This document shows, piece after piece, positions 28,064-29,603 of a DNA stretch of 64,000 nt (position 1 is the stretch's first letter; each line of letters opens with the position of its first letter). The DNA lies in NCBI GenBank assembly GCA_016867975.1, contig VGIC01000002.1:38648-102647 (forward strand), given 5' to 3'. This DNA comes from Betaproteobacteria bacterium. GTDB taxonomy: Bacteria > Pseudomonadota > Gammaproteobacteria > Burkholderiales > Methylophilaceae. The notes beneath the pieces are model-generated. The model saw only the letters and a program-made list of their open reading frames with translations, made no database searches and was not told the DNA's origin. The position numbers and the translations under genes are program-made.

Positions 28064-28080
28064 TTTTTGTAGTTAAATCA

Positions 28081-28104
28081 AACGGCAGGGTGAACCCTGC
28101 CGTT
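28081..28104 (+). terminator. Hairpin between tuf copy 2 and rpsJ (terminator/attenuator-like)
   Basis: AACGGCAGGG-tgaa-CCCTGCCGTT followed by tcgctctttt. Confidence 0.6.
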
Positions 28105-28127
28105 TCGCTCTTTTGAAAGGCAGTAAA

Positions 28128-28436
28128 ATGACAAACCAAAAAATCCGTATCCGTCTTAAAGCTTTTGACTATCGTTTGATTGATCAATCAGCTCAAGAAA
28201 TTGTAGAAACTGCCAAACGTACTGGCGCAGTAGTTAAAGGTCCAGTGCCTTTGCCAACTCGTATCGAGCGCTTTGATATCTTGCGTTCACCACACGTCAA
28301 TAAAACATCACGTGATCAGTTCGAAATTCGCACACACCAACGTTTGATGGATATTGTGGATCCTACCGATAAAACAGTGGATGCATTGATGAAGTTAGAT
28401 CTGCCAGCAGGGGTTGATGTAGAGATTAAGCTTTAA
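28128..28436 (+). CDS. rpsJ: 30S ribosomal protein S10
   Basis: [37 protein letters not shown] track start 28113 is 5 codons early. Confidence 0.98.
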
Positions 28437-28460
28437 ATCTAGCGATGATTAGATAAAAGA

Positions 28461-28492
28461 ATCCAGTGATATTTTCCTCACTGGATTTTTTT
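28461..28492 (+). terminator. Rho-independent terminator directly after rpsJ
   Basis: ATCCAGTGA-tattttcc-TCACTGGAT followed by TTTTTT. Confidence 0.85.
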
Positions 28493-28678
28493 ACATTTGG
28501 AGCAATAGGAGTGTTGGCGCGCAATTGATTGCGCGAAACAGCCCATTAGCTGGCGTAGTGCGTCCCCGTTAACAGTGCACCGTATGTTTCCTCCAGCGCA
28601 CTGCTAGGCGAGTGCGCCCTCCATGGGCTAATGAAGATTTTTACGCGGTAAATGATTTAAGAGGAATTTTAGTATGCT

Positions 28679-28710
28679 CTCCTCATTCCCGCCTTCGCGG
28701 GAACGAGGAG
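28679..28710. repeat. REP-like palindrome
   Basis: CTCCTCATTCCCGC-cttc-GCGGGAACGAGGAG, 14-bp arms with one mismatch, in the rpsJ-rplC gap. Confidence 0.55.
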
Positions 28711-28839
28711 CGAGGGTTTTTTCGCTGAGAAATTTAGTTTTTTAAGCGTTTTGCAAAGGTCTCAGTACAATAACAATCCAAAAAATCCATATGCCAACAC
28801 GTATTGAGCGAGAACCCAAAAAAAAGAAATTAAAAAAGT

Positions 28840-28869
28840 TTGGCATGTTTTTATTTTATTAGGTATAAT
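28840..28869 (+). promoter_or_regulatory. Putative sigma70 promoter upstream of rplC
   Basis: TTGGCA - 18 nt - TATAAT (perfect -10), 65 nt upstream of the rplC ATG. Confidence 0.7.
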
Positions 28870-28934
28870 CGCGCCTCTTTCACAGAAGTCGGTCAATTGT
28901 AATCGACTTTTTAACTAACTATAAGGAAACGATC

Positions 28935-29603
28935 ATGAGCTTAGGGCTTATTGGTCGCAAGGTGGGGATGACCCGCGTATTTACCGAGGATGGCGCAAGC
29001 GTTCCGGTAACTGTGCTGGAAGTTGTGCCTAACCGCGTGACACAGATCAAGACGACCGCAAGCGATGGCTACAATGGCCTTCAAGTTGCTTACGGCACGC
29101 GTCGTGCTAGCCGTGTAAACAAGGCTTTGACTGGGCATTACGCCAAGTCAGGTGCTGCTGCAGGGGCTGGTATTCAAGAATTTTCAGTAGATGCTGACGC
29201 TTTGGCTAATTATGCTGCTGGTGCAAATATCACTGTAGATATTTTCCAGCCTGGCCAAAAAGTTGACGTAACCGGCACTTCTTTGGGTAAAGGTTTTGCT
29301 GGTGCAATTAAGCGTCACCATTTTAGCTCAAACCGTGCATCTCATGGTAACTCACGTTCACATAACGTTCCTGGTTCTATCGGTATGGCGCAGGATCCTG
29401 GTCGAGTATTCCCAGGTAAGCGCATGCCAGGTCACTTAGGTGCGGTTAAAGTCACCACGCAAAACCTCGAAGTGGTGCGTGTGGATGTTGAGCGCAACTT
29501 GTTGTTGATTAAAGGGGCTATCCCTGGCTCTAAAGGCGGAGACGTGGTTGTGCGTCCAGCTATCAAGACCAAGGCTAACAAGGCGCAGGGAGGTTCTAAA
29601 TAA
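28935..29603 (+). CDS. rplC: 50S ribosomal protein L3
   Basis: 222 aa; [20 protein letters not shown]. Confidence 0.99.

Follow-up and report, generated by a model that had tools for sequence, protein, structure and literature searches.

Comparative analysis of the window, a 64,000-nucleotide stretch of DNA from a Methylophilaceae genome, showed that a leader hairpin with a CAAUNGNA loop has been kept by compensatory change before rplC, the gene for ribosomal protein L3, across the beta-proteobacteria and in scattered other lineages of the gamma class. The simplest reading of this arrangement is that an L4-type feedback site is placed at rplC instead of at rpsJ, with L4 proposed as the ligand by analogy. 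We assign a probability of roughly 0.6 to the reading that the rplC leader is an r-protein leader whose loop is bound by free L4, which would repress rplC and the genes that follow it. A preliminary description of the window had proposed that rplC onward forms an independent transcription unit and that any L4 feedback would act at a relocated leader, and it had tied this arrangement to a long, terminator-containing gap after rpsJ. This proposal is largely right, but it holds throughout the order, and the arrangement is not caused by the long gap.

Structure and distribution of the rplC leader hairpin

The source genome (1.56 Mb in 44 contigs, 92.7% complete, and apparently metagenome assembled) has its nearest named relatives in Methylotenera, of the Methylophilaceae. 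In the window, rpsJ (28128 to 28436, + strand; the open reading frame spans 28113 to 28436, with an internal ATG at 28128) lies directly downstream of tuf and encodes an S10 protein that is 97 to 100% identical to S10 of the Methylotenera relatives. The rplC gene (28935 to 29603, + strand) is the first gene of its unit, with a ribosome-binding site, read from the sequence as AAGGA, at 28923 to 28927 (+ strand); it is followed by the second gene, rplD (L4), which starts at 29603.

The hairpin, AGAAGUCGGU-CAAUUGUA-AUCGACUUUU, occupies positions 28884 to 28911 (+ strand), has a folding energy of −9.6 kcal/mol, and matches covariance model R1 with 34.3 bits (E = 2.7e-6). Six positions of its 8-nt loop are invariant in 51 distinct sequences, and the two variable positions can each be U, C, or A. 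Two-sided changes were found in all 7 of the 7 stem pairs, giving a covariation score of 0.683 versus 0.313 ± 0.021 for shuffled data (0 of 500 shuffles scored as high) and no more than 0.196 when the pairing partner was slid as a control. The covariance model had a single match in the window, and a pattern that tolerated two mismatches had a single match in the whole genome.

To define how widely the hairpin occurs, we examined eighty named public-genome loci, mainly from beta-proteobacteria, including Methylophilus, Methylobacillus, Zoogloea, Aromatoleum, Thiobacillus, Gallionella, Cupriavidus, Collimonas, Herbaspirillum, and Paraburkholderia. The hairpin preceded rplC in these loci with few exceptions, and when named and genus loci were combined, it was present in 109 of the 110 that could be scored. 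Both hairpin and loop were found in the rpsJ-rplC gap of 105 of 106 related beta-proteobacterial loci. Among scorable loci from other families of the order, the gap contained the strict hairpin in 14 of 18, and two more had a variant loop or a mismatch. Of 148 other loci of the class, mostly drawn from different families, a further 17 carried it, where dinucleotide shuffles predict 0.1. No hairpin was detected in the 250 to 300 nt upstream of rpsJ in the beta-proteobacterial, order-family, or class sets, nor in the rpsJ and rplC coding sequences used as controls, and matches of the covariance model in the class loci (E < 0.25) fell only at sites already scored as gap hairpins. Two features that mark r-protein leaders, an RNA structure supported by covariation and a consistent placement upstream of r-protein genes, were both found. 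Searches of Rfam with the window, the gap (E up to 10), and seven related loci returned no relevant family; however, the E. coli S10 leader had no Rfam match either, so this absence is weak evidence of novelty.

Some loci stand out from this pattern. Three members of the order (L079, from Nitrosomonas; L300, from G051; and L310, from G042) have no recognizable hairpin before rplC, and these natural losses should be useful for testing its role. Three class loci (L197, L215, and L253) have the hairpin within short rpsJ-rplC gaps of 48 to 63 nt; L197 and L253 have a CAU/AUG stem tip, as E. coli HE does. These loci are possibly intermediates between the two placements described below.

Comparison with the E. 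coli S10 leader and the proposed ligand

L4 is the established regulator of the S10 operon. The E. coli S10 leader, which lies upstream of rpsJ, contains the sequence CCCAU-CAAUCGUA-AUGGG, and in the predicted fold, CAAUCGUA caps a hairpin that is followed by AUUUUCGUUU. We take this to be the attenuator hairpin HE, on the basis of its position and of a published description (PMC10578931). Its apical loop is identical to a common beta-proteobacterial variant, so that the rplC leader contains a hairpin of the HE type whose loop is that of E. coli; only 25 of 20,000 shuffled E. coli leaders contained such a hairpin. The CAAUNGNA-type loop is present in HE in 4 of 31 Enterobacterales loci and is therefore not a strict defining feature, and because of this low count, the match between HE and the beta-proteobacterial loop could be a coincidence or a private enterobacterial trait. 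A second element, CUCC-CRAUNGG-GGAG, was found by strict pattern in 16 of 31 Enterobacterales and nowhere else. We take this element to be hairpin HD; stem D is reported to be necessary for L4-mediated regulation (PMC10578931). No HD with a CRAUNGG loop was found in beta-proteobacterial gaps or upstream of beta-proteobacterial rpsJ, but the loop core CRAUNG is common to the Enterobacterales HD and the beta-proteobacterial hairpin. The two placements never co-occur: Enterobacterales lack the hairpin before rplC, and the other loci lack one before rpsJ, with the location upstream of rpsJ that typifies Enterobacterales S10 leaders seen in 0 of 106 beta-proteobacterial loci. A scan of 369 class genomes with the E. 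coli HE pattern gave mostly chance matches and was set aside, and no convincing hairpin with this loop turned up in a search of E. coli 23S rRNA.

The two leaders also share their downstream context, since both precede the genes for L3-L4-L23-L2. They differ in that the E. coli leader is located before rpsJ and the beta-type hairpin before rplC, in length (172 nt versus about 60 nt in the window), and in the lack of HD here. The E. coli HE enters a U-tract, as does the hairpin of Methylophilaceae, including that of the window, and about one third of beta-proteobacterial loci do so by a loose criterion; most beta-type species lack a U-tract, and the hairpin is instead close to the Shine-Dalgarno sequence. 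The boldest point of the preliminary description, that the S10 cluster may have its leader moved to rplC, is better supported than the sequence alone could show, by a hairpin before rplC that resembles L4-responsive elements of E. coli, and we infer that L4 is its ligand from the likeness of the loop to HE and HD, the mutually exclusive placements, and the inclusion of rplD in the unit. The absence of HD from the beta-proteobacterial leaders, the low count of this loop in Enterobacterales HE, the limited spread of the U-tract, and the negative 23S rRNA search weigh on the other side. The comparison suggests that an L4-recognition hairpin may be more widespread than the E. coli type and differently placed.

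Under the L4 reading, free L4, the product of the second gene of the unit, would bind the hairpin loop and repress rplC onward. In beta-proteobacterial loci, the stem usually ends 0 to 13 nt before the Shine-Dalgarno core, and this closeness fits a mechanism in which translation would be blocked. Premature termination may also be possible in Methylophilaceae and E. coli HE, where a U-tract follows directly on the stem; in Methylophilaceae this tract is conserved, which makes attenuation conceivable there. Expression of rpsJ would then go with tuf.

The main rival to L4 is L3, because its gene adjoins the hairpin. The leader may be a genuine r-protein leader that responds to L3, or else to L23, L2, L22, or S3, and we regard this as clearly less likely than regulation by L4, though worth taking seriously. 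In its favor, rplC always adjoins the hairpin, and proximity of a gene is among the accepted grounds for assigning an r-leader ligand (PMC7247131). The loop itself argues otherwise, as it matches that of E. coli HE and has the CRAUNG core in common with HD, an element of the L4-responsive leader; L4, moreover, is the ribosomal protein already known to regulate this operon. No L3 leader appears in the list of r-leaders consulted (PMC7247131).

Short stable 5′ hairpins can stabilize mRNA. It is correspondingly conceivable, but rather unlikely, that the hairpin has no r-protein ligand and instead shields the 5′ end of a highly expressed mRNA, adjusts its translation, or binds a nonribosomal factor. 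In Methylophilaceae, it lies near the 5′ end predicted for the mRNA, a position that would suit such a role; however, a role of this kind would be expected to keep the stem and not the loop, whereas six loop positions are fixed here while the stem varies.

Two candidates from an earlier survey offer partial parallels. Eckert et al. (2020; PMC7247131) place an L4 r-leader candidate upstream of rplC-rplD-rplW-rplB in Archaeoglobi. It resembles the present leader in preceding the same genes but is archaeal, and the two are compared here by position. An alphaproteobacterial L2 r-leader candidate in the same survey likewise lies within the S10 cluster of proteobacteria, but it precedes rplB instead of rplC and is unreported there for beta-proteobacteria.

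According to a review, L4 control of the kind seen in E. coli is restricted and late (PMC10931766). If L4 binds, a hairpin with the same loop before rplC across the beta-proteobacteria would overturn that view. We tentatively suggest, at slightly below even odds, that L4 feedback on the S10 cluster was not a late gamma-proteobacterial invention and that a CRAUNG-loop hairpin recognized by L4 dates far back within the class. It would have held one of two sites that exclude each other, upstream of rpsJ in Enterobacterales and ahead of rplC in beta-proteobacteria and other lineages, with rpsJ in the latter thereby free of L4 control and joined to the str/tuf unit. Such a history would show how a feedback site can move among the genes of one operon and explain how rpsJ might have parted from the operon. 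The hairpin also provides L4 binding studies with a minimal target of 26 nt and yields a leader model, supported by covariation, for the main ribosomal operon in a large group of bacteria.

The rplC promoter and leader in the genus

In a 2-kb promoter scan, 2.8 sites are expected by chance, so that a lone sequence match is weak; neither promoter nor terminator counts in this region exceeded shuffled expectation, and conservation was therefore needed to judge both. The promoter noted in the preliminary description, TTGGCA-N18-TATAAT, is present at 28840 to 28869 (+ strand) with 11 of 12 matches. Across the genus, its −10 box and the distance from that box to the leader are conserved, while its −35 is new: genus relatives have TTGTAA-N17-TATAAT. 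The short 5′ leader that the description placed before rplC (28876 to 28934, + strand; predicted start near 28876) is likewise near-invariant across Methylotenera. The final ~75 nt before the rplC start codon (TATAAT, GAAGTCGGTCAATTGTAATCGRCTTTTTAACT, and onward) are almost invariant in the genus and intact in the window, where just the sequence upstream of GGTATAAT has been replaced. Because this block from the −10 box to the start codon is shared with the genus relatives and only the sequence upstream of it was replaced, the rplC promoter and its ~60-nt leader, as predicted from these alignments, are old and conserved and are not a product of insertion.

These comparisons bear out the independence of rplC onward insofar as the unit has its own promoter, which is conserved in Methylotenera and similarly placed in many beta-proteobacteria. 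They do not support the long gap or the strong terminator as the cause of the arrangement, since relatives keep promoter and hairpin in gaps of ~100 to 220 bp (rpsJ-rplC spacing is 102 to 218 nt in genus relatives versus 498 nt in the window). A strict terminator scan found a strong site after rpsJ in 1 of 48 rpsJ-rplC gaps, the window's own, and in 0 of the 47 others; some relatives have weaker candidates. As nearly all relatives lack a strong terminator, transcription continuing from rpsJ probably contributes to rplC expression in these genomes, and the window genome, in which the terminator is present, should be more dependent on the rplC promoter. A literature search found no published transcription start site for rplC in Burkholderia or Neisseria. 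For rpsJ itself, the scan found no promoter-like site upstream on the + strand, and its expression therefore probably depends on the str/tuf transcript. The tuf-rpsJ interval contains a perfect 12-bp hairpin with little T-tail (28080 to 28105).

Origin of the insert between rpsJ and rplC

The strong terminator reported after rpsJ was recovered as a terminator-like 16-bp inverted repeat with a U-tract (T7) at 28454 to 28493 (+ strand; −19.3 kcal/mol), with no counterpart found in relatives. Beyond it, an inserted mosaic of ~370 bp (28495 to 28861, no strand assigned) takes the place of the ancestral −35 region. Aligning the gap across relatives thus showed that promoter and leader are kept, whereas insert and terminator are private to the window genome: when 52 genus genomes were searched, 28495 to 28861 was matched at full length only in its own genome. 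Several components that the preliminary description did not mention make up this mosaic; nor did it mention the conserved leader hairpin at 28884 to 28911. A short palindromic dispersed repeat (28510 to 28538) has 93% matches elsewhere in G021, G436, and G432. A structured dispersed repeat (28566 to 28637) has a 92% copy at G000:C22:31117-31189 and partial copies in G021. A dRS3-like palindrome, ATTCCCGC-GCGGGAA (28680 to 28710; 14-nt arms, 93% complementary), extends with its flank to 28762; it has no second exact copy in its own genome, and related elements occur in several Methylotenera. Finally, 28763 to 28810 (+ strand) is a decayed 5′ fragment of rpsJ in which the start codon ATG has become ATA and 102 nt are deleted internally in frame. 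The fragment aligns with rpsJ in two stretches, one of 30 nt (87% identity) and one of 19 nt (89%), and is nearest to the rpsJ of near relatives.

The insert is best read, from these matches, as the debris of a partial rpsJ duplication and of repeat insertions. Its arrival would have lengthened the gap, added the terminator, and swapped the −35, leaving the −10, leader, and hairpin untouched, and it may have been tolerated because these elements stayed intact and a new −35 arose. Consistent with the description of the gap as lacking a convincing ORF, none of at least 50 aa was found on either strand of 28437 to 28934. The idea that the insert encodes a short functional peptide derived from S10 (23 codons from 28790) was considered and rejected, because this stretch is private to the genome, has no S10 start codon, and appears decayed. 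It is very improbable that the ~370-bp insert is itself a functional noncoding RNA or a regulatory element of the S10 cluster: the gap is structured, as described, in that the gap, taken as 501 nt, folds better than shuffles (z = −4.1), but the terminator and palindromes alone could account for this energy, and the insert is found only in the window genome and consists of dispersed repeats together with the decayed rpsJ fragment.

The structured repeat at 28566 to 28637 (L002 1501-1573) has the sequence GTGCACCGTATGTTTCCTCCAGCGCACTGCTAGGCGAGTGCGCC and has copies in its own genome and in G021. Many beta-proteobacterial rplC −10 boxes lie inside a GC-rich palindrome, such as GGCCGG-TATAAT-CCGGCC (L056, L051, and L074); in the window, the left half of the palindrome around the −10 (28858 to 28880) was lost through the insertion.
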